Virus record (IMG/VR): IMGVR_UViG_3300020125_000141
Coordinates: 1-44,158 of that record
DNA: 44,158 bases
Direction: 5' to 3' (one strand)
From: a virus
Positions 8,790-35,758 of this stretch are shown here, one piece after another (positions within the stretch are counted from its first letter, which is position 1; the number at the start of each line of letters is the position of its first letter). Under the pieces are notes generated by a model that made no database searches, was not told the DNA's origin, and was given only the letters and a program-made list of their open reading frames with translations. The position numbers and the translations under genes were made by a program.

Positions 8790-8807
8790 ATAATAGCGCA
8801 ATTGCGC
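8790..8807 (-). promoter_or_regulatory. Palindrome site A and -10 box
   Basis: GCGCAATTGCGC (8796-8807) abuts TATTAT (8790-8795, minus strand), which is 8 bases before the ATG at 8781. Unlike the other copies, the palindrome touches the -10 box rather than covering a -35 box. It lies in a 29-base gap between two genes. Confidence 0.7.
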
Positions 8808-8810
8808 CAA

Positions 8811-9212
8811 TCAGAACACCGCAATCAGCGGGACTGGCGACCAGTGGCGAATGTCTCCAACCTGCTTTGGCTTCCAGGTGCAGCCGCATTCCGGACATTC
8901 CCACGATTCCGCGGTCGCCAGCTTTCCTGCGCTCATGGCCTTGTGGAGATGCTTACCGCAACACGAATCGGGGTCGTAGGTCTGGAGCGCAAACTGATCG
9001 GCGGATACCTCATGCATCCGTGCCAGCCGACCGTTCGCAAGATGCCGCGCTACAAACGTGCCTTTGCTCGGAGCGTTGAGCAGCGCCAAATACAAATCGT
9101 AGGAGATATCCGCCCACTCGTACAGCTTGCCGTCTCGGAACTCCACTCGCAGCGTTGTGCCTTCGTGGCCGATACGCGCGACATTCGAGGATTGAACTGC
9201 GACCATCAGCAT
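8811..9212 (-). CDS. KTSC-domain protein with Cys-rich C-terminus
   Basis: 133 residues. The first about 65 residues (AVQSSNVARIGHEGTTLRVEF, DGKLYEWADIS, LLNAPSKGTFVARHL) fit the KTSC domain, a small beta fold often encoded near phage head genes. The C-terminal half has CC and CPECGCTW, a possible zinc ribbon, ending in a SPVPL segment. The start overlaps the portal stop (TAATG). Role unknown. Confidence 0.75.
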   Translation of the reverse strand: MLMVAVQSSNVARIGHEGTTLRVEFRDGKLYEWADISYDLYLALLNAPSKGTFVARHLANGRLARMHEVSADQFALQTYDPDSCCGKHLHKAMSAGKLATAESWECPECGCTWKPKQVGDIRHWSPVPLIAVF

Positions 9213-11110
9213 TACGCCGCTCCCATCCTAAGCAGCCGCTTGCTCTCTTCAATCAGCCGCTCGATAGCTTTCTTAGTCGCCGCGACAGCTGGACCAGCCG
9301 GAGTAGCTATCGGTACAGGCTCTGGCGCCGGAGGCTCAATCGTGCGGTCGGCTTCGTAGGTGGCCTCGGGATACGCTTCCTCGATTAGTTCGTCGCCATT
9401 CTCCACACCGAGTTGATCGTAGAGCAGCCGGACGCCCGCGCGCTCATCGATACCCACGACGGTACCGGACAGGTTCCCCAGCGTCATTGCTTCGACTGTG
9501 GACTTCACCAGCAACGCCACGTCGCCCTCTACGATGTTCGGGAAGTTTACACGGATCTCAATGTCGGTAGACTTGTCCGGAGTTGCCTCGTACACCCATT
9601 GGCCGTTGGGCTTCTGCTTTCGGCTCGCCTCGCGGATCTGGATGGACTCGATATTGCGCTTCGCCTCTCTGAGCTTCCCTGACGCCGCTTTCCCGCTAAC
9701 GCCCAAAACGTACTCCGCGATGATGAGCAAGTCTTCGCGCCACGCTTCCTGCTTTTCGATGAAGTTCAGCTCGGTCGGCCGATCCAAGCTCGTAGCGGTC
9801 GCCAAGTTCGACGTGTTCATGTCGCTCAAGAAAGTCTCAGGCACACCCACCACCATGCAGCACATAAGCTTGTACTGCCGGACTTCCTCGGGATCTCCAC
9901 CAGCGCCCTTCGTGTTGAACGCTTCGAGCTTAGTGCCTGGTCCGCTGGCGAATGTACCTCCTGCAACCGTCGGCGGGTTCGTATCCCACAGGCTTGATCC
10001 CACGGAAACGTTGGTCTGTAATTGCTGTTTTGCACCTTCCAACGCCTGTTGCCCACCCTTCGTGGTCAACGTCATGGCGATTTGCGCGAGCGCCTGGCGA
10101 ACCGTGAGACATGCTTCAAGGAAGCGTCGTGCAGCTCGCGCCCAGTCCAACGCCGGGTAAACCATCGGACAACCGAACGTCCACTGCGCAACCTCGCCGG
10201 ACTTTCGGTGATGGATGTGGCAGTCCCACATCACTTCAATACCGTTGATCTCCGCTGGCTTTTCGTCAGGATCGTACCCGAGCGCCGGGTAGTATCGCTC
10301 AATCGGTTCTGTGCTCTTGGCTCCCGTCACCGTGTTGAAAACCTTGGCCGTCCAGCAGCGCTTGTAGAACCAGGGTTTCTCCGCGTCTTCAGGGTCGCAC
10401 TCGATATCCTGGATTTCCGTTGCGTCGATCAGCCGGCACTCAACTAAACCCTTGTCCACGGTATCGGCGAACAACGCGAAGAATAAATTGCCGTCGTAAT
10501 ACTTGCGCCGCTCGTGTTTCGCCAGCGCGATCCTTCCTAGCGTCTTGCGGTTCCGCGCGAAAAACTCCTTCAGTACTTCATTGGCGTCCATGTCGGAGCT
10601 GGTCACCTCGACGCCGCGGGCGAACACGTAGGCCGCCGCTACGTCGATGAGCCGGCGGATGATTGGATTCTTGACGTAGTAGAGCCGGGATATCAGGATG
10701 ATTTGCTGGATGCCCCACCGGGAGAACTCCAACCAACTCATGTTGACCTCGCGCCGCCATTCGACGTTTTGCAGCGCCAGCTCGATATCGCCGAACGCGC
10801 CCTGTCCGATCAGAGGAACCGATTCCTTGAGTCCGAGCGCACGGTCACGGATGCGGCCTAACGCCTGTTGCGCCTCGCGGGGCCCAATTGCCTGTCGCCA
10901 CGGACCAGGCCCGCTCATCAGACGCGCCTCGATCCACTCCGCAGCGAAGTCCATATAATCGCCGAATCGATCGCGCTCTTGTTGCTCTGGTAATAGCTTC
11001 AGAAGTAGGCGATTCTCCGCGCGAAGGTCGGAGATGGTGGCCTGTGGGTCGGTTTGAGGTTTGAGGCGATTAACGCACCAGATGAGGAAAGAGAGGATGC
11101 GGCGTTTCAT
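9212..11110 (-). CDS. Portal protein
   Basis: 632 residues from the ATG at 11110 (a GTG one codon earlier is also possible). It forms the dodecameric channel through which DNA is packaged and ejected. Typical features include a helical N-terminus, the wing region with NPIIRRLIDVAAAYVFARGVEV, and the late block ETFLSDMNTSNLATATSLDRPTEL followed by LLYDQLGVENGDELIEE. Position upstream of the minor head protein is standard. Its separation from terminase by about 7 kb of glycan genes is unusual. Confidence 0.9.
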   Translation of the reverse strand: MKRRILSFLIWCVNRLKPQTDPQATISDLRAENRLLLKLLPEQQERDRFGDYMDFAAEWIEARLMSGPGPWRQAIGPREAQQALGRIRDRALGLKESVPLIGQGAFGDIELALQNVEWRREVNMSWLEFSRWGIQQIILISRLYYVKNPIIRRLIDVAAAYVFARGVEVTSSDMDANEVLKEFFARNRKTLGRIALAKHERRKYYDGNLFFALFADTVDKGLVECRLIDATEIQDIECDPEDAEKPWFYKRCWTAKVFNTVTGAKSTEPIERYYPALGYDPDEKPAEINGIEVMWDCHIHHRKSGEVAQWTFGCPMVYPALDWARAARRFLEACLTVRQALAQIAMTLTTKGGQQALEGAKQQLQTNVSVGSSLWDTNPPTVAGGTFASGPGTKLEAFNTKGAGGDPEEVRQYKLMCCMVVGVPETFLSDMNTSNLATATSLDRPTELNFIEKQEAWREDLLIIAEYVLGVSGKAASGKLREAKRNIESIQIREASRKQKPNGQWVYEATPDKSTDIEIRVNFPNIVEGDVALLVKSTVEAMTLGNLSGTVVGIDERAGVRLLYDQLGVENGDELIEEAYPEATYEADRTIEPPAPEPVPIATPAGPAVAATKKAIERLIEESKRLLRMGAA

Positions 11111-11131
11111 CACGCCAAGCTTATCACTGAT

Positions 11132-11599
11132 TTAGGGCGTGCGCACCCATCGCTGCTTTTTGCTGCACTTCTGATCCCTCCGCCCCTCCCTCGATTTCCA
11201 GCCGTAGCCCCAGACTTCTTTGGTCATGCCGAATCGCGCCCAGCCGTCCGCGTCGTAGATCGTGCCTTTGTGCCCTTCGGTCGGGTCGCTGTAGGAGAGC
11301 AGCAACCGGATTCCAGGAAGCCAAGTACGGACATAACGCCGCATCATCGCGAGGCCGTGACTCTCGGTGTTCTTTGGCGCTTCATCCACGAAGTACACGC
11401 GATGCAATTGCAAAATGATATCGGCGTCGTATTCTTTCGGTGCGGGCCGTCCAAGCAACATCGCGCCCACAAGCTCGCGGCCCTCGGTGAACTCAAGCAC
11501 GAAGATGAAGCCAGGCGGACAGGATTGCAGGTAGTGGTGCATGGCGATCCACTTCGAGGTAGCACGCGACTCTGAAGGCTGGCAGCGACGGATGTTCAT
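11132..11599 (-). CDS. Mom-like DNA-modification acyltransferase (GNAT fold)
   Basis: 155 residues. Diagnostic blocks are HHYL (21-24), GAMLLGRPAP (45-54), HRVYFVDEAPKNTES (66-80) and LLSYSDPTEGHKGTIYDADGW (100-120), with the R-V-DEAP-N and SY-DP-GH-G-IY patterns of Mom-family proteins. In phage Mu, Mom modifies adenines in DNA and blocks host restriction. The ATG overlaps the upstream glycosyltransferase stop (ATGA), making it the last gene of the cassette before the portal. A more general GNAT function is the alternative. Confidence 0.75.
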   Translation of the reverse strand: MNIRRCQPSESRATSKWIAMHHYLQSCPPGFIFVLEFTEGRELVGAMLLGRPAPKEYDADIILQLHRVYFVDEAPKNTESHGLAMMRRYVRTWLPGIRLLLSYSDPTEGHKGTIYDADGWARFGMTKEVWGYGWKSREGRRDQKCSKKQRWVRTP

Positions 11600-12474
11600 A
11601 CAACTCCGAACAGATCTAGCCCAGCGAACTTCTCGCGCCCGTGCTCAGCTACCAGCCGCCTGCATTCCGCTTCCTGCCACAATTCAGCATCCAGGTGCAG
11701 ATGCTTATTCGCAAGCTCCATGTATGGCGCCCACCACTCTATCGGCACTTGCGCGAAGGTCCACGGCTCACGCGGCTTGATTGCCAGCGAGTAGAGATCG
11801 TCAATCTTTCGCACGTCCTTTTCTGGCCAACGCAAACGCTCGGTGATTTTGTAGTGTGCGTGCTTTGCGATCAGCCTCCGCTCGCTGGCGCCCCACATGT
11901 GCATCACGCCGCCCTGCCCCTGCTGAATCGGTCGATACGGCGTGAGGGTCATTCCTTGCGGCTCACGTTGGTGGAAGGTATCGCCAGCCCAGCGCAAGCG
12001 TGGGTCGTCCGCAAACGCTACCGAGACGATGCGGTTTCCCCAGACGGCGTTTGAGTGATAGCGGTCGATGCCGCCGCGCAAGTTGTACAGCGGAAGTTGG
12101 AGGATTGTTGCTGGCTGGCTGTGTTGCGGAATCTCGCCGCTTGCGCGCACGAGGTAGGGCATCTGCTGAATCAGATTGCCCGTCAGGATCTCATCGGCGT
12201 CGATGATGGCGATGTGGGTCGCGCGATGGTGGCGCGCATAGTCAAGCATCCACTGTCTGTGCTGCATCTCGTCCCATTGAGGCTCCGCGTAAACCGAGAG
12301 GTGAACGCGATCCTCGCCTACTTCTTCGCGAACGGCTTGCGCGATATCCTCGCTCGCATCCGTGCAGGCGTGCAGGAAAACGACAACCTCATCGCACCAC
12401 ATCAGCGCCACGCGCAGCGACAAGCCGAGTACCCAGTCTTCGTTTCGCACCGACATACAGGCGATCAGTTTCAT
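11596..12474 (-). CDS. Glycosyltransferase, family 2-like
   Basis: About 292 residues from the ATG at 12474 (GGAG 8 bases upstream). The N-terminus MKLIACMSVRNEDWVLGLSL and the DxD-type motif IDADE (91-95) are those of GT2-like enzymes that recognise a donor nucleotide sugar and metal. A His/Trp-rich region follows (about 165-215). The acceptor is unknown. It lies between the methyltransferases and the Mom-like gene in a coupled operon. A 9-codon mini-ORF starting at 12500 overlaps its start. Confidence 0.8.
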   Translation of the reverse strand: MKLIACMSVRNEDWVLGLSLRVALMWCDEVVVFLHACTDASEDIAQAVREEVGEDRVHLSVYAEPQWDEMQHRQWMLDYARHHRATHIAIIDADEILTGNLIQQMPYLVRASGEIPQHSQPATILQLPLYNLRGGIDRYHSNAVWGNRIVSVAFADDPRLRWAGDTFHQREPQGMTLTPYRPIQQGQGGVMHMWGASERRLIAKHAHYKITERLRWPEKDVRKIDDLYSLAIKPREPWTFAQVPIEWWAPYMELANKHLHLDAELWQEAECRRLVAEHGREKFAGLDLFGVV

Positions 12475-12496
12475 GCAAAGTTCTCCAACTCGGGGT

Positions 12497-12586
12497 TCAT
12501 GAATGACAGCAGCCTCCAGCCTGCACACACAAAAAGGTCAACAGCAACAGCAACGCGGCCACCAGCACTTGATCGGTGTGCTTCAT
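12497..12586 (-). CDS. 29-residue membrane or lipoprotein-like peptide
   Basis: Starts with an ATGA overlap on the FkbM-like gene stop. The peptide MKHTDQVLVAALLLLLTFLC has a single hydrophobic helix followed by VQAGGCCHS. Its length and Cys content recall small anchor peptides or lysis-type lipoproteins, though the LTFLC pattern is only lipobox-like. The overlap on both sides (next ATG at 12500) argues that it is translated. Confidence 0.5.
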   Translation of the reverse strand: MKHTDQVLVAALLLLLTFLCVQAGGCCHS

Positions 12587-13188
12587 CCGAGCACCGTGTC
12601 CCAGTGGCCGATCCAATCGCCCTGTTTGGTTACCTCGTGCTGGATCACGCGATAGCCCAGCTTGGCGAAGAGATCGGCATAGTAGATTTCGGTTCTGTTT
12701 GGTCCGCTGGGTGTACCGTCGTGAAACTCCACGCTGATCTGCCGCGCGATCCCATAATGATGCTGTGGCCATTTTTCGAGTATCTGGAATTCCGAGCCCT
12801 CGCAGTCCAACTTTATGAGGTCGAAATGAAATACCTGACAGCAGTTCATCAACTCCAAGATGCTGATGCAGTCCACACGTATAATCTTCGCGTCGTAGTA
12901 TGGGCTGTCGTCTTCACGGAGCATGTTGCCCTCTCCTGTCGAATAGCTCGCGTACCACGCCCGTGTGCGAACATCGCCCACCAATGCGTAGCGCAGAAAC
13001 GTGACGTTCGGGTGCTGCATCGGCTCAATCGCCGGGTCCGGGTCCAGCGCGATAACGCGGGCTTTCGGCCTCAGCGCGAGAATGCCGCGGGTGAAATCGA
13101 AGTTGCGGGAGCCGACATCGAGGATAACGGCGCGCTCTGGTAGGAGCGATTCGTCAAACGTGTGGCCGCAGATCGTGGTGAGGTTCAT
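12583..13188 (-). CDS. FkbM-like methyltransferase
   Basis: 201 residues. Rossmann SAM-binding start VILDVGSRNFDFTRG (21-35), an acidic turn VIALDPDP (about 45-52), and FDLIKLDCEGSE (about 121-132), the FkbM signature. These enzymes O-methylate sugars and other hydroxyls. The ATG overlaps the TylF-like stop (ATGA). Substrate unknown; the surrounding glycosyltransferases suggest a glycan. Confidence 0.8.
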   Translation of the reverse strand: MNLTTICGHTFDESLLPERAVILDVGSRNFDFTRGILALRPKARVIALDPDPAIEPMQHPNVTFLRYALVGDVRTRAWYASYSTGEGNMLREDDSPYYDAKIIRVDCISILELMNCCQVFHFDLIKLDCEGSEFQILEKWPQHHYGIARQISVEFHDGTPSGPNRTEIYYADLFAKLGYRVIQHEVTKQGDWIGHWDTVLG

Positions 13189-13823
13189 TTGGTGGGAATC
13201 CTCCAGTACACCGGCGCCGGGACAACCGTTTCCATCACGGCCTTTCGGCATCCGCTGAGGTTCCAGTCGTCTACAATGACCCAGCCGCCCGGCGAGACCA
13301 GCGGGTACAAGTGCTCCATCACCGGCTTGGTGGATTCGTAGAGATCGCCATCGAGACGTAACAGCGCAATGGCGCGAATGTACATCGCTTGACATTCGAC
13401 CGATCCGAGAGCCGCATCGCGAATCGATGTCTTGAACATCCCTGGATGGTAGATCAGCAGCTCATCCGGGATGCCCCAGCGCTTCATGTTGGCCTTCACG
13501 TCCACAAGTGAGCACGCCGATTCGCCGGCCGGTACGCCTTGCAGTTCGTGGTCATGCTCGCCGGCGGCCGGGATGCCTTCAAAGCTATCGAACAGGTGGA
13601 CGCGTGGCATCTCCGCCATCGCGTAATCGTTCACCGTTGCGATGTGGTCCATGATGGCCCGCGCCATGATCGCGCACTGTGCGCCTGCGTAGACTCCGCA
13701 CTCAACGAAGTCTCCGGGCACGCCACGCGCCAGCACCGCCCGTGCGATGTCGTAGGTCGCCTCGAAGGTCTCGGTGTGGCCGAGTCCGGACATGCGCACG
13801 TTGTCAAACCATTCGCGGTTCAT
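13185..13823 (-). CDS. TylF/MycF-like O-methyltransferase
   Basis: 212 residues. Motifs GDFVECGVYAGAQC (SAM loop), VHLFDSFEGIPA, LDGDLYESTKPVMEHLYP and GGWVIVDDW match the macrocin O-methyltransferase family, where paired Asp residues (DGD, DDW) bind metal. It probably methylates a sugar hydroxyl. The ATG shares one base with the upstream stop (TAATG). Confidence 0.87.
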   Translation of the reverse strand: MNREWFDNVRMSGLGHTETFEATYDIARAVLARGVPGDFVECGVYAGAQCAIMARAIMDHIATVNDYAMAEMPRVHLFDSFEGIPAAGEHDHELQGVPAGESACSLVDVKANMKRWGIPDELLIYHPGMFKTSIRDAALGSVECQAMYIRAIALLRLDGDLYESTKPVMEHLYPLVSPGGWVIVDDWNLSGCRKAVMETVVPAPVYWRIPTK

Positions 13824-14608
13824 TAGACATTCCTCCATCGGCTCCCGGCCAGGTCGCTCCGGTCACCAGTGCAATACTCCTGGTGGAAGAGCTGCGGGTA
13901 TTTATCCTCTTCGAGTCCGCAATTCGGCGACACCGGCCAGCCGAACTGACACGCCTCCCGATGCAGCGGTATCCCGTACTTCGAAGCCAGTAGCGTCAAC
14001 ACGCTTTGTTCGTTCGAGTGCCGCGCGAACTCGGGAAACTCCGGCGCATACTTCGATGGCTCCAGGCTCTGACACATCGGATTCACCGAGTATGTGAGCC
14101 ATTCGCACAGGAACTGCCACGCGCGATAGTCCCCAACCTTGAACGTGCTGAATCTTCCGCAAGCATGCCGCGCGTTCCAGTGCTTCTCTTCGTCCAGCCC
14201 CATCGCTACGCAGCAATCGCGCCGGGTGAAGCGCTTGTTCGGATTGCCTTGGGATTCGAAGAGGCAGATGCCATCACGCTCGGCGAATTGGAAGATGGGC
14301 GAGAGGTCGGCAATGGGGTAGGTGTCGGCGTCCACGTACAGGACCGTGTTGTGATGCAGCGCGATGAAAGCCTTGTACCACTCTTCCAGGATTATCATCG
14401 GCTTCCACGCGCACCAGCCGAAACCAAACTTCTTGTCGGTCTCCCATAGGAACGAGTTGAGCTTGCGGAAGTCAGGCACTTTCTCGACCAGCCAGCGGTC
14501 ATCGTAGACGCGCACTTCATCTGCTCCGAACCGTGGACCGTCTCTGACGATGCGCTCGGTTGTCGCGTCATACGCTCGCCCTCCGAAGGTGATGAGGATT
14601 CGGCTCAT
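13823..14608 (-). CDS. Glycosyltransferase with VDADT motif
   Basis: 261 residues from the ATG at 14608. The motif LYVDADTYP (90-98) is a DxD metal/nucleotide-sugar site in the GT8-like or nucleotide-diphospho-sugar transferase style. The flanking FGFGWCAWKP and NEQSVLTLLASKYGIPL are also seen in such enzymes. It probably transfers a hexose; linkage and acceptor are unknown. ATGA overlap with the DUF7694-like gene. Confidence 0.78.
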   Translation of the reverse strand: MSRILITFGGRAYDATTERIVRDGPRFGADEVRVYDDRWLVEKVPDFRKLNSFLWETDKKFGFGWCAWKPMIILEEWYKAFIALHHNTVLYVDADTYPIADLSPIFQFAERDGICLFESQGNPNKRFTRRDCCVAMGLDEEKHWNARHACGRFSTFKVGDYRAWQFLCEWLTYSVNPMCQSLEPSKYAPEFPEFARHSNEQSVLTLLASKYGIPLHREACQFGWPVSPNCGLEEDKYPQLFHQEYCTGDRSDLAGSRWRNV

Positions 14609-14973
14609 ATGGATTTGCCGATCCCGTCCACTTCGGCGCTGAACTCCGGTAGTACTTGCCCGTCCGCTTCGTCCCAACGCGCCCAAAGGTGCAGGCAGTG
14701 ATTGTGGATGTTGACGTACTGTTCGCGAGGCGGCCAGATTGAGTAGGCGTAGCGATCTTCACCGATGAACGCGCGCTTAACCTTCGCCATGTCCTCATGT
14801 GTCGGCGTCCAACTTTTGCGCGATACGCTTACATGGAGCCACGGAAATCCGTTGGCCTTAACCTCGCAATCGACGATCACGCGCAAACCGCCGCCGATCT
14901 CGCGAAGCGCGTAACCGTCGCCCCATGGCTGGATCAGCTCGAAACCTTCTGGGCAGGAGAATTGCCAGTTCAT
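14605..14973 (-). CDS. DUF7694-like protein
   Basis: 122 residues. The pattern WLHVSVSRKSWTPTHEDM, a VKRAFIGEDRYA helix, then YVNIHNHCLHLW resembles DUF7694, small proteins found in phages. Function unknown. It is coupled by ATGA overlaps on both sides in the glycan cassette, so it is expected to be made with the transferases. Confidence 0.65.
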   Translation of the reverse strand: MNWQFSCPEGFELIQPWGDGYALREIGGGLRVIVDCEVKANGFPWLHVSVSRKSWTPTHEDMAKVKRAFIGEDRYAYSIWPPREQYVNIHNHCLHLWARWDEADGQVLPEFSAEVDGIGKSI

Positions 14974-15626
14974 CTTCGCACCAGAACCACGTTCGTCCCA
15001 TTGGCCATCGTCGCGGCATAGCCGCGCGCCGTGGCTGCGCTCAATATCTCGGCAAGCCGGTTGTCATGCTCGCAGCAAATTGCGTGCGGCTCCCACTGCA
15101 GCTCCATCATGCGGAGAAACAGGCCGACCGATACGCCCTCCGCGTCGATATTGATGAAGTCGAAGCCCCCGAACTGATTCGAGATTTGCTCCAGCGTGAT
15201 TGCCGGCGAAAGCATCGTCCCGTAGAAGCCGCCCTTGTCGGCCCACACTTCAAAGTTGCCCTCGTCGCTAGTCGACACCGCATCGTCGGTGACGTGCAAC
15301 TTCACCAAGCCCGCCTCCAGCGAGACGCACGCGCCGATGATCTGCACATCGAAACGGTGTTGGATTGGTGCGGATGGGTTCAGCAAACTGGGGCGGTCCA
15401 CATGTCCGTATTCCTTCACGAGCCCCAGCAGCGGACCCGGCGAAGGCTCGATCAACACTGCGCTCGCCCCCATCTCAATCAGCGCACGACTGTTCGATTT
15501 GTCTGTGGCGTGATACGCTCCGATGTCCAACACGCGATAGTGTCGGCCATGCGCTGGGTCAGGTGCGTACTCATCGAACGCCGCAAGGATAGCGGCCTGC
15601 TCGCCAAATTGCGAATAGTCTGTCAT
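14970..15626 (-). CDS. FkbM-like methyltransferase
   Basis: 218 residues. YRVLDIGAYHATDKSNSRAL is the SAM-binding loop, AVLIEPSPG the acidic turn and FDFINIDAEGVSVG the FkbM-type catalytic region. It is only distantly similar to the second FkbM-like protein of the cassette (12583-13188), so it is not a recent duplicate. It could methylate a sugar or an amino acid side chain. Overlaps its neighbours in ATGA. Confidence 0.8.
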   Translation of the reverse strand: MTDYSQFGEQAAILAAFDEYAPDPAHGRHYRVLDIGAYHATDKSNSRALIEMGASAVLIEPSPGPLLGLVKEYGHVDRPSLLNPSAPIQHRFDVQIIGACVSLEAGLVKLHVTDDAVSTSDEGNFEVWADKGGFYGTMLSPAITLEQISNQFGGFDFINIDAEGVSVGLFLRMMELQWEPHAICCEHDNRLAEILSAATARGYAATMANGTNVVLVRR

Positions 15627-16489
15627 GGTATCGGCTGATGGCCAGGGAAGCCCAGCCGTTTCCTTTCTGTGAATATGGCCTTGTACTTCGCCCAGTGCGC
15701 CTGCGAGTTCGCCTCGATCAGGTGTTCTGGAATGTCGCGCTTCACTGCGTCAGAATCCAGCGCATCGGACTCGCGCTGAAAGTGTCTGTGAAGGTGGATG
15801 AGGTCTGGACGCTGCCAGAGAACGCCCATCGCTTTCGTTACCTCGAACATTTCCTCGTCACCGAAGCAATGAGTGTACTCTGGCCAAAATGGGCCGCGCC
15901 CGCCGTACATCCGCCGGCAGAACTCGCGCCCCATCCACGGTGAGCCACAGATACGATCGATGGAGCCGCCGGCGAACCGATCGCCAGTGGGCTGCATCAC
16001 GCCGAAGGTGGGCGAAGATCGCGATAGCGGCGTACCGCGCGCGGGCCAGTTCAGATTAGCAAACCGTTCCGAGCACTGCCGCGCGATTTCTTCCGCCGTG
16101 TGGTTCAGGTCCGGCTCTACGTCGTCACCCCCCGTGACGAACCATTCGGCTTGCGGATCTTCCTTCATCACCTCGACGATGAGCGCGTTCACGGCCTGCG
16201 CGTAACCGGGGTATTCGTTGAAGTGCGGATAATACTGACGCCCTCCCGGATCAAGAGGCCCACGAAGTTCAAGCGGCCCGTTAGTCGGCTTCGCGTCGTA
16301 TTTCGGTGCGTACTGGCCGCCACCGCATAGCATCAGGTCTCCACGCGACTTTCGCGAATACAGCGGAACTCCAGGCGGATTCCAGTCCACGAACAGGGCG
16401 ATCTTGTAGCCGCGTTCTCGCCAGAGCTTTAGGACGCGCTCGGCTTCCTCTGCTGGCCGCGCACTCGGAATACAGAACCACACGCTCAT
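15623..16489 (-). CDS. Putative glycosyltransferase
   Basis: 288 residues. The N-terminus MSVWFCIPSARPAEEAERVL and FVTGGDDVEPD (117-127) give a GT-A-like fold with an acidic DD site. A C-terminal FGDEEMFEVTKAMGVLWQRPDL segment is typical of GT2-type acceptor-side helices. Donor and acceptor unknown. ATGA overlap on both ends. Confidence 0.72.
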   Translation of the reverse strand: MSVWFCIPSARPAEEAERVLKLWRERGYKIALFVDWNPPGVPLYSRKSRGDLMLCGGGQYAPKYDAKPTNGPLELRGPLDPGGRQYYPHFNEYPGYAQAVNALIVEVMKEDPQAEWFVTGGDDVEPDLNHTAEEIARQCSERFANLNWPARGTPLSRSSPTFGVMQPTGDRFAGGSIDRICGSPWMGREFCRRMYGGRGPFWPEYTHCFGDEEMFEVTKAMGVLWQRPDLIHLHRHFQRESDALDSDAVKRDIPEHLIEANSQAHWAKYKAIFTERKRLGFPGHQPIP

Positions 16490-16662
16490 TGGTTGGTCCG
16501 TTTTACCGCATCCCAGTCACGCACAAGCTGGGCCATGATTTTCTTGTCGTCAACGTGCATATGCGGCGATTGGCTGAGGTTGAAACAGACATTCGCCATT
16601 TGCGCTCCGACGCGCCGTAACTCAGTAACTTCAGTTGCCAACTCTGCTTTCGTGGCTTTCAT
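16486..16662 (-). CDS. Small helical protein in the glycan operon
   Basis: 58 residues, MKATKAELATEVTELRRVG onward, mostly helical and probably a short coiled coil. The start overlaps the GT2 stop and its stop overlaps the next GT start, both ATGA. No family recognised; perhaps an oligomerisation or adaptor partner. Confidence 0.6.
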   Translation of the reverse strand: MKATKAELATEVTELRRVGAQMANVCFNLSQSPHMHVDDKKIMAQLVRDWDAVKRTNQ

Positions 16663-17510
16663 AGCGCCATTATCTCCCGTAATTTCGAATCCCACGCCGG
16701 TACTCTTGTCCAGTCCGTACTGGGCTCGGTGATGCTTGCGCAGGTGTTCCCACCGTGTATTTCGGCGACCATCATCGGCTGCGCGTGAGGTTCGATGGCT
16801 GAATCGTCGCCGTGCTGACAAGCATTGGTTTGGTATTCACGCCAGCACGTCTCGCACTCGTAATCGGGCATCCTCAGCGATGACACGCTGCGCACCTTCA
16901 GTCCCAATACCCAACTGTCCTTGATGTGCGCCGAATCGTCACAGCCTTTGTTGGTGTCCGGGAATGGCTTCCTCTCCCAGGTCTTCCGCCAGTACATCAG
17001 CGACGTGCCCAACGCGTAGTTCGGCTTGTGATTGTTGTGCAGCCACGCCTCGCCTTTGTGTTGCGCGCCTTCGAGGAACTCTCCGTATTCGACGCCGCAT
17101 TTATCTTCCGGGCAACGAGGTAACCATGTGCCGCCCTCAGCGAATCGGCATGATTTCCAGAAGAGCATGTCAGAATATCCCACCGCATCCGCGCCGCTCT
17201 CCTGAAGGAATTGCACTTGCTCTGCTAAACGAGTCGGTGCGCTCACATCGTCCGAATCCCAATGTGCGATTATCTCGTCTTCCTTCGGCGTCAGAGCATT
17301 TGCTGCGTTGCGCAGCGCTCCGATACTGCCACGCTCTCCCAGAACGCTCCAGCCGCCATATGTGCGCTTGTACGGCGTCGTGCCTGTATCGTAAATGAGC
17401 AATCGCTTGTCCCGGTAAGTCTGCGCCATGAAACTCTTCACGGCGCGGTCCGTCTGGGCCTGGCGATCTGCTGTGAGGCAGATGCAGCACACGCGGGGAT
17501 TCGTTGACAT
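16659..17510 (-). CDS. Glycosyltransferase family 2, first gene of the cassette
   Basis: 283 residues from the ATG at 17510; earlier in-frame starts would read through the promoter. CICLTADRQAQTDRAVKSF is the GT2 N-terminus and IAHWDSDDVS (81-90) the DxD motif. A Cys-rich C-terminal region (CETCWREYQTNAC) may bind zinc. It opens the coupled operon that runs to the Mom-like gene, from a palindrome-controlled promoter 9 bases upstream. Confidence 0.85.
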   Translation of the reverse strand: MSTNPRVCCICLTADRQAQTDRAVKSFMAQTYRDKRLLIYDTGTTPYKRTYGGWSVLGERGSIGALRNAANALTPKEDEIIAHWDSDDVSAPTRLAEQVQFLQESGADAVGYSDMLFWKSCRFAEGGTWLPRCPEDKCGVEYGEFLEGAQHKGEAWLHNNHKPNYALGTSLMYWRKTWERKPFPDTNKGCDDSAHIKDSWVLGLKVRSVSSLRMPDYECETCWREYQTNACQHGDDSAIEPHAQPMMVAEIHGGNTCASITEPSTDWTRVPAWDSKLREIMAL

Positions 17511-17519: not shown

Positions 17520-17549
17520 AGTGTAGCACCTAAATGCGCAATTGCGCAA
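17520..17549 (-). promoter_or_regulatory. Promoter and palindrome site B (glycan cassette)
   Basis: On the minus strand TTGCGC (17544-17549) is followed by an 18-base spacer and TACACT (17520-17525), 9 bases before the ATG at 17510. The palindrome TGCGCAATTGCGCA (17535-17548) covers the -35 region. A protein bound there would block polymerase. Confidence 0.78.
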
Positions 17550-19755: not shown

Positions 19756-20212
19756 GGGAAGTATTTAACGCGTCCTTCAGTCGCCCGGCCAGAGAGAGCA
19801 GTGATTTCTTGACCATCACTCTCGTAATATAGCGCTTTCCTTGATTTGGCTCGCCGGCTATCACGTAGCCCTGTCGCTCGAACCACGGCACGGCGCTATC
19901 GATGACACGGGCAAAGTTGACTTGCAGATAGTCGAGCACTCGTGCTCCCATACCGTGAGAGCGATGTGCTGGGAGCACATTGAGTACGAGCAAAACGTTG
20001 AGGGCTGGATTGACGATGGATACTGCCACATCCTCAGCGGCGAACGTGTAAAGCGTCACGCCGCCGTTGCGAGCACAAATCTTGACAAGATTGCGCCCAA
20101 TGAAAGTCGGGTGCTTCCCTCGATCTAGGATTTTCTTGATGCGCGCGTAGCAGTCGCCGCCGACTTGGATCGGCTGGACTTCTTGGGCGCAGCGACATGT
20201 CTGTTTCCGCAT
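19748..20212 (-). CDS. GNAT-like acetyltransferase
   Basis: About 154 residues from the ATG at 20212 (a GTG at 20218 is also in frame). The core NVLLVLNVLPAHRSHGMGARVLDYL contains the R-x-x-G-x-G acetyl-CoA loop, followed by AVPWFERQGYVIAGE. The N-terminus overlaps the ParB-like gene by about 88 bases. A role in acylating a protein or modified base is possible; note the Mom-like gene elsewhere. Confidence 0.72.
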   Translation of the reverse strand: MRKQTCRCAQEVQPIQVGGDCYARIKKILDRGKHPTFIGRNLVKICARNGGVTLYTFAAEDVAVSIVNPALNVLLVLNVLPAHRSHGMGARVLDYLQVNFARVIDSAVPWFERQGYVIAGEPNQGKRYITRVMVKKSLLSLAGRLKDALNTSRA

Positions 20213-20721
20213 TTGCACACACAGTTCGGTATTCCCGCGCTTGCGCCCGATCCTGAATTCATGGCGTCAGGCAATCGTAACTCATCGAGCCTGAGTTTCA
20301 GGGTGTTGTCAAACTCGATAATTCCTCGAAGCAGATCTCCCTCCAGGTGCAGCGTCTTTAGTGTCGGCGTATCGAGATCGGCAAGAAAAGGAGCAAGCAG
20401 TTCTGGTGTCGGCTCGCCATGCACAGTGTTCATGTTCACCGCGATTCGGGCCGCGCGCCTGTCGTCGCACGGGTGCACCAACACACAGGATATCTCGATG
20501 CCTCCGACATCGCGCTGCGCCATCACACGATGATTGCCGCTCAAAATCTCATAAATCGGCCCTGCCCTGCGCACCACGATGGGCGCGAGAAATCCGTCGC
20601 GGGAGATGGAACGCTTGAGCGCCTCACTCTGTGACTCGGAGAGATACTGGGGGTTACGCTTGAGCGGGCGCAGCTTACTGAGCGGGATTGTGAGCAGCGT
20701 CGTTTTCGGGGATGACAGCAA
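20125..20721 (-). CDS. ParB-like nuclease-domain protein
   Basis: 198 residues from a TTG at 20721; the start is uncertain. IPLSKLRPLKRNPQYLSES, FLAPIVVRR and YEILSGNHRVMAQRDVG form the ParB N-terminal/sulfiredoxin fold with the G-x-H-R nucleotide-binding motif. The C-terminus is Cys-containing (CVCKCGN) then Lys/Ser-rich and may bind DNA. Phage ParB-like proteins near terminase genes often have uncertain roles in DNA modification or nicking. Confidence 0.78.
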   Translation of the reverse strand: MLSSPKTTLLTIPLSKLRPLKRNPQYLSESQSEALKRSISRDGFLAPIVVRRAGPIYEILSGNHRVMAQRDVGGIEISCVLVHPCDDRRAARIAVNMNTVHGEPTPELLAPFLADLDTPTLKTLHLEGDLLRGIIEFDNTLKLRLDELRLPDAMNSGSGASAGIPNCVCKCGNRHVAAPKKSSRSKSAATATRASRKS

Positions 20722-20974
20722 ACCGCAATCTTACCATGGGCGCGCTCGTGTCGGAGTAACATGCCGCGACTTGGCCAACGCGCGTGCTCTCCAGTTGATC
20801 GACCTGGACCGCTTCATGCGCCGTGATAACCAGCCGAGCGAAGATGCGGGAAGGCCCCACGCACGCCTGCACCACAGAGCCGACGCGTGGCAATCGCTTC
20901 GCCGGGCGAATCGTGTCTGTCTTTTCGCCCGAGAGGATCGGCGCTCGATAGATCTGCTTGAAAAATAAGAGCAT
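20675..20974 (-). CDS. ASCH-domain (PUA-like) protein
   Basis: 99 residues. MLLFFKQIYRAPILSGEKT followed by DTIRP and VGSVVQACVGPSRIFARLVI matches the ASCH fold, implicated in RNA or modified nucleic-acid binding. It is the first gene of the ASCH-ParB-GNAT-terminase unit. The -10 box is 5 bases before the ATG, so the mRNA is likely leaderless. Confidence 0.75.
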   Translation of the reverse strand: MLLFFKQIYRAPILSGEKTDTIRPAKRLPRVGSVVQACVGPSRIFARLVITAHEAVQVDQLESTRVGQVAACYSDTSAPMVRLRFAVIPENDAAHNPAQ

Positions 20975-20979: not shown

Positions 20980-21008
20980 ATTATAGAAAACGGCCATTTC
21001 CCCTACAA
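20980..21008 (-). promoter_or_regulatory. Consensus promoter for the packaging operon
   Basis: TTGTAG (21003-21008), 17-base spacer and a perfect TATAAT (20980-20985) on the minus strand. It lies only 5 bases before the ATG at 20974. Confidence 0.72.
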
Positions 21009-21034: not shown

Positions 21035-21064
21035 GATGTACGCCTTGTCTGCGCAATTGCGCAA
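21035..21064 (-). promoter_or_regulatory. Palindrome site C with possible upstream promoter
   Basis: TGCGCAATTGCGCA (21050-21063) lies just after the stop of the collagen-like gene. TTGCGC is followed 18 bases later by TACATC (21035-21040), a weaker -10 with no ATG close by. Site C is about 75 bases upstream of the packaging gene start and may set a second promoter. Confidence 0.55.
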
Positions 21065-29801: not shown

Positions 29802-29938
29802 ACGCGGTCGTCTCCGATGTCGTCTTTATCCTCAGGGTCGCAGTCGTGAATACAATCCTCTGCTTCCAGATCGTTGTCGTGATCTTCGATATCGCCATTG
29901 CAAGTACATGCTTGGCCGCATTCAGGACAGGTGTGCAT
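29798..29938 (-). CDS. Acidic Cys-rich small protein
   Basis: 46 residues. MHTCPECGQACTCNG begins a Cys-rich site, followed by a highly acidic tail (about 17 Asp/Glu). The tail could mimic DNA or bind metals. ATG overlaps the upstream stop (TGATG). Confidence 0.57.
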   Translation of the reverse strand: MHTCPECGQACTCNGDIEDHDNDLEAEDCIHDCDPEDKDDIGDDRV

Positions 29939-30484: not shown

Positions 30485-30516
30485 TTAGGACCTCTCCCTC
30501 TGCGCTGTTAGCGCTC

Positions 30517-31290: not shown

Positions 31291-31454
31291 TTCTTCGCTT
31301 CTTCCATGTGCTCAGAATCCTTTTGCTCTTCCTCCCACCGCCGAAAGTCCTCATCAACCATTGCCGAGCATTCCTTACACAGTAATTTTCCTTCGTATTG
31401 CCAAGGTCCTATGCCAGAACGTTCGCATCTGCCTGATGGGTTTCCACACTTCAT
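31287..31454 (-). CDS. Small zinc-ribbon protein
   Basis: 55 residues. CGNPSGRCERS and CKEC form a two-pair zinc site, with an acidic helical end (RRWEEEQKDSEHMEEA). Starts one base after the SSB stop, with GAGG inside the SSB end. ATGA overlap with the Gp157-like gene. Confidence 0.62.
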   Translation of the reverse strand: MKCGNPSGRCERSGIGPWQYEGKLLCKECSAMVDEDFRRWEEEQKDSEHMEEAKK

Positions 31455-31455
31455 A

Positions 31456-31977: not shown

Positions 31978-32198
31978 AATTCACCTAATTCCCTTTCGTC
32001 TTCCATCATTTCGGCATGCTGCCACGCCCGCGCTTGCCGCTTACGCATCGGAATCAGCGCCGGATCGCCAGCGCGAAACTCGCCATCCCACAGCCACTGA
32101 TCGGCAAATGACTCCTCGCGCGAGAGCAGGGAACCTGACCGGGCAGACGGATTATCGAGCCGATCAGAAGATACGTTTGCTCTCGCGCCAGTAGTCAT
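31965..32198 (-). CDS. Small hypothetical protein
   Basis: 77 residues from the ATG at 32198 (ATGA overlap). Ser/Arg-rich N-terminus, and a WLWDGEF segment followed by a helical basic end. It overlaps the SSB start by 13 bases. No family recognised. Confidence 0.55.
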   Translation of the reverse strand: MTTGARANVSSDRLDNPSARSGSLLSREESFADQWLWDGEFRAGDPALIPMRKRQARAWQHAEMMEDERELGELWRL

Positions 32199-32611
32199 AA
32201 ATCGATTGTGCTCTCGCTCTCTGGGACTGGCAATCCCGCTTTCGTACCGTTTTCCTTGAGATATTGGGCATAGTACTGTGCTGCCAACACCTTCATGTCC
32301 ACGCGATACTTGTCTTCGAATTCCTTGCGATTGAAGTCGTATTCGCGATGATGCTTTCTCCCGAGCGGTACACACGACGAGTCGGGACCCTTACTACTGG
32401 CCCCATTATTTTCGGTGTGCGCCGGATCTACCGGAATGCAACCGTAAAAATCCACTTTCGTAGCGTCTGTCTCTGCCATCTTCTTGCAAACCACGCAATG
32501 TTGACGCTTGAGCCAACGCCGGTACTTCGGATCGCGCATCGGCCCGCGCCTCGGCTTGCGCCGCTTCTTAACGGGTGATCTCTTGAGAAGGGTGAAGGGA
32601 TCGCTTTTCAT
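32195..32611 (-). CDS. HNH-like nuclease
   Basis: 138 residues from the ATG at 32611. Very basic N-terminus (KKRRKPRRGPMR), then HCVVCKK, DPAHTENNGASSKGPDSSC and VPLGRKHHREYD, a compact His/Cys zinc site like DUF1364/NinG-type recombination nucleases. It may act on branched DNA. Confidence 0.68.
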   Translation of the reverse strand: MKSDPFTLLKRSPVKKRRKPRRGPMRDPKYRRWLKRQHCVVCKKMAETDATKVDFYGCIPVDPAHTENNGASSKGPDSSCVPLGRKHHREYDFNRKEFEDKYRVDMKVLAAQYYAQYLKENGTKAGLPVPESESTIDL

Positions 32612-32805
32612 CGTTTGGCATCCCTCTGCGCTGTCCGATAGCCTCGCACCCATGCGATTTCAATGCAGCCGTGAACGTACTTGCGCAACTTCTCTGGGAT
32701 AGCGATGGTGGTTCCGTTACCCGTGTATTGCTCCAGCGCGAACAACTTATCAGACCTTGCCGCACTCTTCCACAGATCTCGCCGCTTCGGCTTATCCGGC
32801 TTCAC
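32608..32805 (-). CDS. Small hypothetical protein
   Basis: 65 residues, MKPDKPKRRDLWKSAARSDK onward, basic. Overlaps both neighbours in ATGA. No family recognised. Confidence 0.55.
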   Translation of the reverse strand: MKPDKPKRRDLWKSAARSDKLFALEQYTGNGTTIAIPEKLRKYVHGCIEIAWVRGYRTAQRDAKR

Positions 32806-33095
32806 GATTGCTCCTCTGCCATCTTGATCGCCGCGTCAGCGCGGGCGATAGCTTCATCCGAAACGGCGAAGCGTGCCTGGCTACGGAGGTACTTCAATTC
32901 CTTTACCAGCGCTTCATGAGCATTCACCGCCCGCACGATCAGGCGGGCGTGCGCCTCTCCAGTGATTGTTGGTGCGCACTTCGCGATCTGAACCGGATTG
33001 TGCGACGAATCGATGATGATGTGAGGAGCATCGGCTTCTATCTGCAATGGCAGAGTCGGCCCCGCTGTCGGCTTCGTGCTCTCGTTTGCGCTCAT
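32802..33095 (-). CDS. Small hypothetical protein
   Basis: 97 residues from the ATG at 33095 with GGGAG 7 bases upstream; earlier in-frame starts would overlap the previous gene. Beta then helical. No family recognised. Confidence 0.56.
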   Translation of the reverse strand: MSANESTKPTAGPTLPLQIEADAPHIIIDSSHNPVQIAKCAPTITGEAHARLIVRAVNAHEALVKELKYLRSQARFAVSDEAIARADAAIKMAEEQS

Positions 33096-33111
33096 GGGCG
33101 GTCTCCCTTCG

Positions 33112-33312
33112 CTATTCATCTGCATCGAATCCTCCACACTTCCAGCATCTTGCTGGCTGTGCTACCATCCCCGCTTCCTGAGTCTCACGGTCCCCACCTG
33201 GTGAGCCGTGGTCGGAGCAAAAATTCCGCTCACAGTTATCACAGGAATAGATTCCGTGGCGCTGGCAGTCCGAAGGATGCTCGCACTTCGGCACAACTAC
33301 AGACATCGGCAT
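33112..33312 (-). CDS. Zinc-ribbon-like protein
   Basis: 66 residues. CEHPSDCQRHGIYSCDNC and CSDH then CWKCGGF give enough ligands for two zinc ions. It overlaps the upstream stop (TAATG). No family recognised. Confidence 0.62.
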   Translation of the reverse strand: MPMSVVVPKCEHPSDCQRHGIYSCDNCERNFCSDHGSPGGDRETQEAGMVAQPARCWKCGGFDADE

Positions 33313-33755
33313 TACGGTTTCAGCGGCCTCCTGACCGCAGTGCGGATCGGCTGCAGTCTCAGATCGCCAATAGAACTATACTCCTCAGCGATCAGGAGTG
33401 CTACGGCGCGCATTGCTTGTGACTCCGAATGGCAAGCTGGCAGCGCGTGAGCTTCACCGCCGCAAAAATACACCGTTGGGCGAAAGCGCCCATCCTCCAG
33501 ACGTTGGACTTCAATCGTATGGCGCTTCGTCGGCTGAGACTGTGGCCGCGTGGCCTCCAGCGTCTTTGGTGGGCTTACCAGCCGCGTAATCAGGCTCTCG
33601 TCGATGTCCGGCTCATCGCCATCGCCCGTCACTGTGTACCAGCCCTGTATCGCGGTGGGTGGGTTGCTTTCGATGATCGTGGCTTCGTGCTCGATCTCAC
33701 GGTGCTCATCGTCCATGTAGGTGATGCGTGCGCCAAGTGGCAATGTGGGGGTCAT
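33312..33755 (-). CDS. Hypothetical protein
   Basis: 147 residues. An SH3-like N-terminal part (GARITYMDDEHREIEHEATI) and a C-terminal helical domain. ATG overlaps the upstream stop (TGATG). No family recognised. Confidence 0.57.
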   Translation of the reverse strand: MTPTLPLGARITYMDDEHREIEHEATIIESNPPTAIQGWYTVTGDGDEPDIDESLITRLVSPPKTLEATRPQSQPTKRHTIEVQRLEDGRFRPTVYFCGGEAHALPACHSESQAMRAVALLIAEEYSSIGDLRLQPIRTAVRRPLKP

Positions 33756-33895
33756 CAGTCGGCCCTCCCGTTGCAGTCGTAGCAGAAGTAAACTTCGGTG
33801 CGATAGCCGGTTGAGTTGTCCTCATCAATCGCTACGCCGATGTTCGTGCCGCCGCAGTGTGCGCAAGTGATTTCGGTTTCGATTACATCTTCCAT
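33755..33895 (-). CDS. 46-residue zinc-ribbon protein, first early gene
   Basis: CAHCGGTNIG and YFCYDCNG form a CxxC...CxxC ribbon. The ATG at 33895 is 6 bases from the -10 box, so the mRNA is leaderless. It opens the early operon, which suggests a regulator or an early host-takeover protein. Confidence 0.68.
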   Translation of the reverse strand: MEDVIETEITCAHCGGTNIGVAIDEDNSTGYRTEVYFCYDCNGRAD

Positions 33896-33901
33896 ATCTC
33901 A

Positions 33902-33929
33902 AGTATAGCCTAATTGCGCAATTGCGCAA
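33902..33929 (-). promoter_or_regulatory. Promoter and palindrome site D (early operon)
   Basis: TTGCGC (33924-33929), 16-base spacer and TATACT (33902-33907) on the minus strand, 6 bases before the ATG. TTGCGCAATTGCGCAA (33914-33929) is a perfect 16-bp palindrome covering the -35 box. Confidence 0.8.
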
Positions 33930-33988
33930 GAACCAGCTTACCTGAGATTAGTTGGGATTTCGCCCTACAGTGGAATGGTAAGAAAGTA

Positions 33989-34261
33989 CTACCCTGGAGG
34001 TGGTGCGATTGTGCGCGATCCTGACGGAATGCTTCGCCAGCCGTAGTTGTCGCGTGCCGTGGCTATCTTGCGCTCACGCCATTCTGTGCCCGGCGTGCCG
34101 TTCGGGAATCCACCCTTTGCGGCAAAGGCGTTGCACTGCTTCGTAATCTGATCACGCATATAGTCCTTGAGCGGCTGGCCCCGGAAGTCAGGCGGAATAT
34201 CTGTACCACCGTCCGGTAGGATCAGGTGGGAGCCGTGAGAGTAGAGCAGGACTTCAGCCAT
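33989..34261 (-). CDS. Small hypothetical protein
   Basis: 90 residues, MAEVLLYSHGSHLILPDGGT onward. No family recognised. The ATG is at 34261, 55 bases after the stop of the previous gene. Confidence 0.5.
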   Translation of the reverse strand: MAEVLLYSHGSHLILPDGGTDIPPDFRGQPLKDYMRDQITKQCNAFAAKGGFPNGTPGTEWRERKIATARDNYGWRSIPSGSRTIAPPPG

Positions 34262-34315
34262 GCCGCTCCGTCGCCAGCGGCCTCAGCGCCTCAGCAAATA
34301 CCAACGCTTCGTGCT

Positions 34316-34561
34316 TTACGTCGTAACCTGGTGCGCTTCCGCAATCCGCCGGCTGAGCTGCCGCATTACTAGCCGCGTCTCCGGGATGCGCTCCAGATCC
34401 GCCTTGAGCCTCGCCGCGCCCTCCGCTGTCATGTACTCCAAGCCCGGCATCAACTCGCTGTGTTCGGCCTCGCGTGCCATCGCCAGCAGCTCCGGCGGAC
34501 GAACGCCGTACCGCTTTGCGAGAAAGCGGATGTGGTCCAGCGTGTTGCGGTTGGCCTGCAT
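34316..34561 (-). CDS. Small hypothetical helical protein
   Basis: 81 residues. Helical with a Met-rich N-terminal part, similar in style to DNA-binding or adaptor proteins. It is preceded by the terminator hairpin at 34595-34626. A reading frame with credible composition (KHEALVFAEALRPLATERHG) continues beyond the stop in another frame. Confidence 0.5.
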   Translation of the reverse strand: MQANRNTLDHIRFLAKRYGVRPPELLAMAREAEHSELMPGLEYMTAEGAARLKADLERIPETRLVMRQLSRRIAEAHQVTT

Positions 34562-34594
34562 GACGTGTCACTCACTACCCCCATGATACAAAAT

Positions 34595-34626
34595 GGCCCG
34601 GCCTCAATCCACTGAAAAGCCGGGCC
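34595..34626 (-). terminator. Rho-independent-like terminator
   Basis: GGCCCGGC (34595-34602) and GCCGGGCC (34619-34626) form an 8-bp GC stem with a 16-base loop. On the minus strand it is followed by ATTTTGTAT, a short U-rich tail. It lies between the genes at 34760-35251 and 34316-34561. Confidence 0.62.
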
Positions 34627-34759
34627 GCATCAAACTCCACTCGAAACTTCACGCCGGAGCCGTTTCCAAAATGTTCCAATCGCCGCGGGCGACGATCAGA
34701 CTACGGCTCCGGCGCTTTCCCCTGATAGTCCTCCCCCCGGATTCCCACCAGGGAGAAAC

Positions 34760-35251
34760 CTACTGCGGCGGAAACAGAACGACGATTGCGCCGGTGTTAA
34801 CGCCCATTACTTCGCCGTCCACGATGACCTGAACCTCGTTATTGATCTCGCCGGTCTTCGCGTTCACCCACACCGGCGTGCTCTGGCTGTCGATGGTGCG
34901 GTGAACCTGAAGCTCAACTTCCGCGATACCGCCCTCTGCCGCCCCGCCGAACGAAGGATCGTTCTCGCGCGGATGGCCTTGCAGCCAATGTGTCAGCGCC
35001 GCTCGATCCGTTGTACCAGTCTGCGAGCACGGCCCGTCTGCGTCAAATGTGATGACGCCCAAGCCGTTGAAGTTGCCACCATTGAACCACGCGGCCGCGG
35101 TGTCGTCATTCCGGCGAAGGACACGATAGCCTGCTACCACTCCCCCTTCATCTCCAAAAAGCCGCTCGGCTTCGGTCAAGCCAGCGGCGTCGATGCTGCG
35201 GGCTTTCTGCCGCGCGGCCATCACTAACTTTGCTGCTTTCGGATCTGCCAT
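34760..35251 (-). CDS. Hypothetical protein
   Basis: 163 residues with AAAGGAG before the ATG. Mixed alpha/beta with GVVAGYRVLRRNDDTAAAWF and GNFNGLGVITFDADG. No motif recognised. It is the last gene before the terminator. Confidence 0.57.
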   Translation of the reverse strand: MADPKAAKLVMAARQKARSIDAAGLTEAERLFGDEGGVVAGYRVLRRNDDTAAAWFNGGNFNGLGVITFDADGPCSQTGTTDRAALTHWLQGHPRENDPSFGGAAEGGIAEVELQVHRTIDSQSTPVWVNAKTGEINNEVQVIVDGEVMGVNTGAIVVLFPPQ

Positions 35252-35268
35252 TTCGTTCTCCTTTGGAA

Positions 35269-35457
35269 TTAAGCCGTCCGTCGCTGGTCCGGCTGTAGCT
35301 GCTTGCGAAACTTCGGATCGGGTAAACTCTTCATCACAATCTTGAGCCCGAGCGCGACCATCGAGGATACCGAAGTACCGTGCTGGTTCGCTGCGCGCGT
35401 AAGCTCGGCGCGAAATCCCGGCTCAACAAATCCACTGACCTTGACGGACCGTTTCAT
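35269..35457 (-). CDS. Ribbon-helix-helix DNA-binding protein
   Basis: 62 residues from the ATG at 35457 (an earlier in-frame start would read through the promoter). KRSVKVSGFVEPGFRAELTR and HGTSVSSMVALGLKIV fit an Arc/MetJ-like ribbon-helix-helix dimer. Its own promoter carries a GCGCAATTGCGC palindrome, so it is the best candidate for the regulator of the palindrome regulon. Confidence 0.72.
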   Translation of the reverse strand: MKRSVKVSGFVEPGFRAELTRAANQHGTSVSSMVALGLKIVMKSLPDPKFRKQLQPDQRRTA

Positions 35458-35465
35458 GCTTGATA

Positions 35466-35494
35466 AGTGTACATGGTTTTGCGCAATTGCGCAA
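35466..35494 (-). promoter_or_regulatory. Promoter and palindrome site E
   Basis: TTGCGC (35489-35494), 17-base spacer and TACACT (35466-35471) on the minus strand, 8 bases before the ATG of the ribbon-helix-helix gene. The 16-bp palindrome TTGCGCAATTGCGCAA is at 35479-35494. Confidence 0.8.
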
Positions 35495-35497
35495 GTG

Positions 35498-35722
35498 CTA
35501 CTCGGCGGGCGCAATCCATCGTTGCTCCCAAGCCTTGAGTGCATGGTCCGCCCGTTCGGCAATTTGCTCTACGGTCTGGACGTTCGCCCGCTCTGTGCTC
35601 AGTTCTGCGCAGAACGCCTGTTCCCAGAACTCGCGCGCCTCTCGTGTGTTGCCGAACCGTGGCCGCGTCGTCACCGCGCCGCCTGTGCCGAACTTCTCGC
35701 CTGATTCGATTGTAGGATTCAT
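35498..35722 (-). CDS. Small hypothetical protein with palindrome promoter
   Basis: 74 residues from the ATG at 35722. Helical (TVEQIAERADHALKAWEQRW). It follows the tail hub stop and is driven by its own promoter. No family recognised. Confidence 0.55.
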   Translation of the reverse strand: MNPTIESGEKFGTGGAVTTRPRFGNTREAREFWEQAFCAELSTERANVQTVEQIAERADHALKAWEQRWIAPAE

Positions 35723-35729
35723 GCGGGTG

Positions 35730-35758
35730 AGTTTATCAGCTTTGGCGCAATTGCGCAA
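35730..35758 (-). promoter_or_regulatory. Promoter and palindrome site F
   Basis: TTGCGC (35753-35758), 17-base spacer and TAAACT (35730-35735) on the minus strand, 7 bases before the ATG at 35722. GCGCAATTGCGC lies at 35745-35756, just after the tail hub stop. Confidence 0.78.

Follow-up and report, generated by a model that had tools for sequence, protein, structure and literature searches.

A six-copy palindrome and a candidate ribbon-helix-helix regulator at the promoters of an uncultured phage group

Why should one exact palindrome stand six times ahead of unrelated units in a single phage genome? The question is raised by a 44,158-nucleotide (nt) stretch of viral DNA, positions 1-44,158 of IMG/VR record IMGVR_UViG_3300020125_000141 and called the window below, in which a sequence-only reading had seen the 12-base-pair (bp) palindrome GCGCAATTGCGC as an operator shared by most transcription units. 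Our analysis indicates that the sites are probably the dispersed operators of an autoregulated ribbon-helix-helix (RHH) repressor, encoded at 35269-35457, which would bring early and late promoters into one phage-encoded regulon. Comparison with related phages gives strong support to a shared-operator regulon with this putative regulator.

Palindrome copies and promoter layout

The sequence-only reading had listed exact copies at 8796, 17536, 21051, 33916, 35481 and 35745, far above chance, outside genes and ahead of minus-strand units, and each of these points was borne out. Against the six copies in the window, 100 dinucleotide shuffles gave a mean of 0.00, and 100 first-order Markov simulations yielded at most two copies of any 12-bp palindrome; GCGCAATTGCGC is also the sole 12-bp palindrome found more than once. 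Degenerate forms are not in excess (12 copies with at most two mismatches, 6.6 expected). All six sites lie outside called genes, the non-coding share of the window being at most about 17% on a rough gene map, and each stands upstream of a minus-strand unit, as nearly all genes of the window are on that strand. The palindrome may be described as a pair of adjoining 8-bp palindromes, both TTGCGCAA, with relaxed outer bases.

Five of the sites, B to F, have one layout, referred to here as class I (Table 1). On the minus strand their -35 box is the left TTGCGC, in which two flanking T precede the palindrome's first GCGC, and 16-18 bases separate it from the -10. This spacing had been stated earlier and holds for the left hexamer at B, C, D, E and F, but not for the right-half TTGCGC to which it had been attached: the right half lies just 8-10 nt from the -10, so that the register was off by 8 nt. 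Site A (class II) differs from these in having the palindrome directly against the -10 box TATTAT, with a Shine-Dalgarno-like AGGAGCC between TATTAT and the ATG. At B, D, E and F, 6-9 nt separate the -10 from the ATG, so that leaderless mRNAs are predicted for these four promoters. At C, unlike these, the gene start lies 60 nt beyond the -10. No Rfam RNA element was found in the window.

Table 1. Operators, promoters and the genes behind them in the window
Feature	Position	Strand	Description
Operator A (class II)	palindrome 8796-8807	-	abuts -10 TATTAT (8795-8790), then 8 nt to ATG 8781
Gene behind A	8437-8781	-	Tat-signal-like protein; head gene next
Operator/promoter B	17520-17549	-	TTGCGC (17549-17544)-N18-TACACT (17525-17520), 9 nt to ATG 17510; palindrome 17536-17547
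Gene behind B	ATG 17510	-	glycosyltransferase, first of glycan/methyltransferase cassette
Operator/promoter C	21035-21064	-	TTGCGC-N18-TACATC; palindrome 21051-21062; not leaderless
Unit behind C		-	gene starting 20974, ParB-like gene, terminase
Second promoter-like sequence at C, operator-free	20980-21008	-	TTGTAG-N17-TATAAT, 5 nt to ATG 20974
Operator/promoter D	33902-33929	-	TTGCGC-N16-TATACT, 6 nt to ATG 33895; palindrome 33916-33927; heads early unit
Zinc-ribbon-like gene, 46 amino acids (aa)	33755-33895	-	first gene of early unit behind D
Operator/promoter E	35466-35494	-	TTGCGC-N17-TACACT, 8 nt to ATG 35457 (RHH gene); palindrome 35481-35492
RHH protein, 62 aa (MKRSVKVSGFVEPG...)	35269-35457	-	behind site E; proposed autoregulated regulator
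Operator/promoter F	35730-35758	-	TTGCGC-N17-TAAACT, 7 nt to ATG 35722; palindrome 35745-35756
Gene behind F, 74 aa	35498-35722	-	

The element and its gene in related phages

A syntenic comparison was provided by a 40.6-kb genome, G065, which was retrieved solely by a scan for the operator and promoter pattern and proved colinear with the window (amino acid identity 58-60% in the portal protein and 57% in the terminase). The element occupies five of the six syntenic positions there, A, B, C, D and E, and at A (L153:18537, minus strand) the palindrome abuts the -10 as it does in the window. Over 14 bp of the operator the two genomes are 86% identical, whereas identity falls to 27% across 60 bp on the upstream side and to 32% across 26 bp on the downstream side. 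The gene behind site E of G065 is an RHH ortholog (hidden Markov model E=2.3e-12), recognised with a profile built before G065 was known. The gene following D is not the zinc-ribbon gene; since that gene is not kept behind the D operator, we dropped its product, which the sequence-only reading had put forward as a possible regulator.

The RHH protein, also named by that reading, is the better candidate, as its orthologs stand behind the element and its presence tracks the excess of TTGCGCAA. Orthologs follow the element in six phages besides the window (G035, G045, G036, G059, G039 and G065), in the first five behind TTGCGC-type promoters. Because PF20605 is independent of the motif and avoids circularity, we used it for a motif-blind search of 18 genomes, of which four matched, each time with exactly this RHH gene. 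TTGCGCAA reaches at least twice its expectation in all seven RHH carriers and in one of ten other genomes (Fisher p=0.0004), and phages lacking the RHH gene mostly lack the element.

With a free N-terminus followed by two helices, the protein as modelled agrees with the strand-helix-helix RHH fold. The AlphaFold2 monomer has helices at residues 13-26 and 30-44 and a free N-terminus, the strand forming only in the dimer; a strand sequence V-K/R-V-S(C) is mostly kept in seven orthologs. A structure search with the predicted fold gave the RHH proteins ORF56, CopG and Arc as best matches, with weak E-values. As a viral-contig query the window RHH sequence returned no confirmed relative and a closer three-row alignment returned already known genomes only; a six-row alignment was too diverged for scanning, and the regulator was not found in cultured phage records.

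The element itself was followed through about 30 diverged relatives, drawn from IMG/VR by portal, terminase and capsid searches. The exact palindrome occurs three times in one further species, phage R (contigs L039, L040, L042 and L051), once ahead of a glycosyltransferase homolog in the layout of window site B and once, at L039:14631, abutting the -10 before a PAPS-reductase-like gene (MVINYCGLSGGKDSS...) in the layout of site A. In a distant relative, L087, it abuts the -10 before a small HNH-like gene (L087:3131). It is absent from most other relatives, several of which carry a degenerate element, TTGCGCAAnTGCGC, in the same promoter geometry. With at most two mismatches allowed, 17 elements were counted (the exact sites of the window and R, five in all, included), compared with 0-2 for control palindromes. 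A scan of viral contigs with the first pattern gave 24 matches, most of which look like chance.

In the seven motif-bearing genomes (the window, R, G035, G045, G036, G059 and G039), TTGCGCAA is the commonest 8-bp palindrome with four G/C, at 50 copies against 20 for the next. Of its 100 strand readings, 25 have TANNNT 14-16 nt further on, compared with 12 of 636 readings of all the other palindromes of this type. Exactly 15 nt is the most frequent distance, with 21 cases among the 50 TTGCGCAA places, which corresponds to a 17-nt spacer between -35 and -10.

Relatives without this RHH gene have TTGACA, TTGACG or TTGACT at their leaderless promoters, and where relatives lack the motif, any repeated palindrome was a coding-DNA repeat or of low copy number. 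In two such relatives, other small genes lie behind TTGAC-type leaderless promoters (L104:9928, whose gene is RHH-like, and L110:7864). Their -10 boxes are overlain by inverted repeats of another kind, such as the one resembling AGCTAACT-GATAT-AGTTAGCT in L110, which suggests other operator specificities. Another common promoter-region element (approximately GCGTTACAGCGTGGTAAGAT) precedes leaderless ATGs in G047, G050 and G001 (L114:8006, L117:8741 and L043:11470). In an unrelated viral contig, a consensus TTGACA/TATAAT promoter has a related palindrome on either side, TTGCGCAGCTGCGC and GCGCAATTGCGCAA (L027:10670).

Several neighbouring genes were also assigned. The cassette behind B, between terminase and portal (11596-17510, minus strand), encodes two glycosyltransferases, TylF-type and FkbM-type methyltransferases and a DUF7694 protein, and is closed by a Mom family protein (11132-11599, minus strand; Pfam E=1.6e-19), a Mu-type DNA modification protein; parts of the cassette are kept in G065. 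The gene at 20675-20974 behind C, earlier labelled ASCH, matched no Pfam family, ASCH included. In phage R the gene for the terminase large subunit is interrupted (L039:2388-3319) by roughly 930 bp of inserted DNA, perhaps an intein or an intron with an endonuclease.

Proposed mechanism and competing explanations

We propose that the 62-aa RHH protein would most likely bind GCGCAATTGCGC as a dimer or a pair of dimers, the two abutting TTGCGCAA boxes being read like MetJ-type tandem boxes. At the class I sites the first box would double as the -35 hexamer of a sigma70-type promoter and the second would fill the spacer, so that a protein bound there would block RNA polymerase; it is expected over TTGCGCAATTGCGC, across the -35 and spacer. 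Such a block would act at the protein's own promoter E, the early unit D, the glycan cassette B and the small gene F. At the Tat/head unit A, the operator would exert it from within the spacer, adjoining the -10. At the terminase unit C it would be partial, given the operator-free second promoter-like sequence there. RHH binding and the timing of expression, like this scheme as a whole, are what we infer from sequence comparison. The proposal of a shared operator over most units thus finds comparative support, while its original promoter register, its zinc-ribbon regulator and its likening to a lambda-type or Mu-type switch are not supported, and unit C may escape it.

As to that switch, neither the tyrosine integrase family PF00589 nor the serine resolvase family PF00239 was matched in the window or the motif-bearing relatives (G065 lay outside this search). 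With no integrase found, a lambda-type switch is not supported; nearly all units are, moreover, on one strand and no second repressor was recognised, and no separate transposase search was made. Of the temperate lifestyle with immunity that marks dispersed-operator systems these searches gave no sign, and plasmid-like maintenance is possible. Given the missing integrase, the likeliest roles would be homeostatic damping or delay of viral transcription, lifted once genome replication titrates the protein away, or else maintenance of a plasmid-like kind. Either replication-driven titration or such maintenance could explain how a repressor acting on the whole genome occurs where no integrase was found.

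A number of observations weigh against the proposed regulon. No PF20605 match reaches the curated cut-off: the window protein has E=0.036 and the best ortholog 7.6e-5. The structure matches are no better than an E-value of about 0.7, a common outcome with models this short. The motif had led to the first RHH seeds, which does not apply to the PF20605 and G065 tests. The counts are partly non-independent: G035 is nearly a copy of G045, and the motif-bearing genomes form partial clusters on the portal tree. G044, a 29-kb contig that may be incomplete, has five copies of TTGCGCAA and no RHH ortholog was detected in it; in phage R (L039/L051), which has the exact palindrome, the genome part expected to hold the RHH gene is not covered, and a search for a contig reaching further found none. 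Finally, the operator-free promoter-like sequence at C may bypass that site.

Of the other explanations, an activator survives best, though we consider it unlikely. In this case the RHH protein or another phage factor would activate, or appropriate sigma, replacing a poor -35 as MotA does at T4 middle promoters. The -35 is indeed TTGCGC and not TTGACA, and the class I geometry is very tight, 21 of 25 matches having the -10 exactly 15 nt after TTGCGCAA. Tight spacing is, however, equally expected if TTGCGC is itself the -35, and the abutting layout (window A, G065, phage R and L087) amounts to a shift of 8-10 nt, intolerable for a fixed activator contact. A repressor fits both layouts, because occlusion is effective both across the -35 with its spacer and next to the -10, whereas an activator needs one fixed geometry. 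SvtR, the best studied viral RHH protein of such kind, represses its own promoter (PMC5569661). We thus favour repression over activation.

There is little likelihood that a host transcription factor binds the site and that the phage borrows a host regulon. The exact palindrome is common to otherwise diverged phages (the window, R and L087), as a host factor would explain, but the element tracks a phage gene, and the full promoter form gave 15 matches in 84,980 species genomes, in unrelated phyla and close to the estimated chance number; the host may, however, lie outside that collection. Slighter still is the chance that TTGCGC is merely the preferred -35 of a host sigma factor, with no regulator involved. 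Its place exactly at the -35 with 17-nt spacing would suit this, yet the second half-site, the six exact 12-bp palindromes and the class II sites would be left unexplained, and relatives use TTGACA or TTGACG at equivalent leaderless promoters.

It is scarcely credible that the RHH gene encodes a common antitoxin with an operator that has since spread: the best Pfam family of the protein is Antitox_RHH, but G065 gave no match to the gene that follows it in the window (34760-35251), so that a conserved toxin partner is not apparent, and conserved operators lie over unrelated phage units. Least probable of all are partition or packaging sites, for which a protein with a ParB-like N-terminal domain (20125-20721) beside site C and the often dispersed, palindromic nature of partition sites would speak, since no ParA match was found among the proteins scanned, the C-terminal half of the ParB-like protein has no DNA-binding domain recognisable by inspection, and each of the sites keeps one of two fixed layouts relative to a promoter -10.

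The repressor regulon preferred here would be a candidate complete regulon, with regulator, operator and promoters, for an uncultured phage group, read from the DNA alone and having passed an independent syntenic test. If true, it would represent a minimal global viral regulator, with operator and -35 merged into one element for leaderless mRNAs, and RHH-DNA specificity could be studied on a natural set, the matched regulators and operators of the relatives. A wider picture is possible but doubtful: a non-integrating phage lineage might be run by one RHH protein of 60-70 aa with its operator fused into the -35 of leaderless early and late promoters, copy number timing the whole programme through titration. 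The other RHH genes behind other leaderless promoters in relatives would then form a family of interchangeable specificities.

Comparison with known regulatory systems

No parallel was found in the open-licence literature searched for an integrase-less bacteriophage group that combines an RHH regulator, leaderless promoters whose -35 is fused with the operator, and control of early and late units; GCGCAATTGCGC and TTGCGCAA were present there only in papers on unrelated topics. Dispersed-operator systems share with the window many copies of one site, the regulator's own promoter included. P1 C1, with 22 operators dispersed over the genome (PMC8546580), is similar in that one repressor serves scattered operators and units, its own gene among them. 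The P1 operators are, however, 17-bp and asymmetric, with the modifiers Coi and Lxc and a temperate plasmid-prophage, unlike the 12-14-bp palindromes and 62-aa RHH protein here. The stoperators of cluster A mycobacteriophages (L5/Bxb1 type), whose site motif co-varies with the repressor across relatives (PMC6550527), likewise combine a single repressor with many near-identical sites in one genome, one of them at the repressor's own promoter. They are 13-bp, asymmetric and oriented with transcription, and belong to temperate phages with a helix-turn-helix repressor acting also on elongation, whereas the window sites are few, symmetric as exact palindromes and fixed to promoter -35 and -10 boxes. 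Differing in symmetry and fold and lacking temperate genes, the present system is not a member of either kind.

As proposed here, P22 Arc and Mnt, like CopG and MetJ, are autoregulated strand-helix-helix proteins whose operators, palindromic or in tandem boxes, cover the promoter; each works at a single local operator or a few, and none is close in sequence to the window protein. The closest likeness is to SvtR and AvtR. These use archaeal TATA/BRE promoters in rod-shaped or filamentous viruses, with no common sequence family shown, but they too are small, virus-encoded, autoregulated RHH proteins with several sites in the viral genome, AvtR having eight such sites, conserved in homologous genes of related viruses (PMC5569661).

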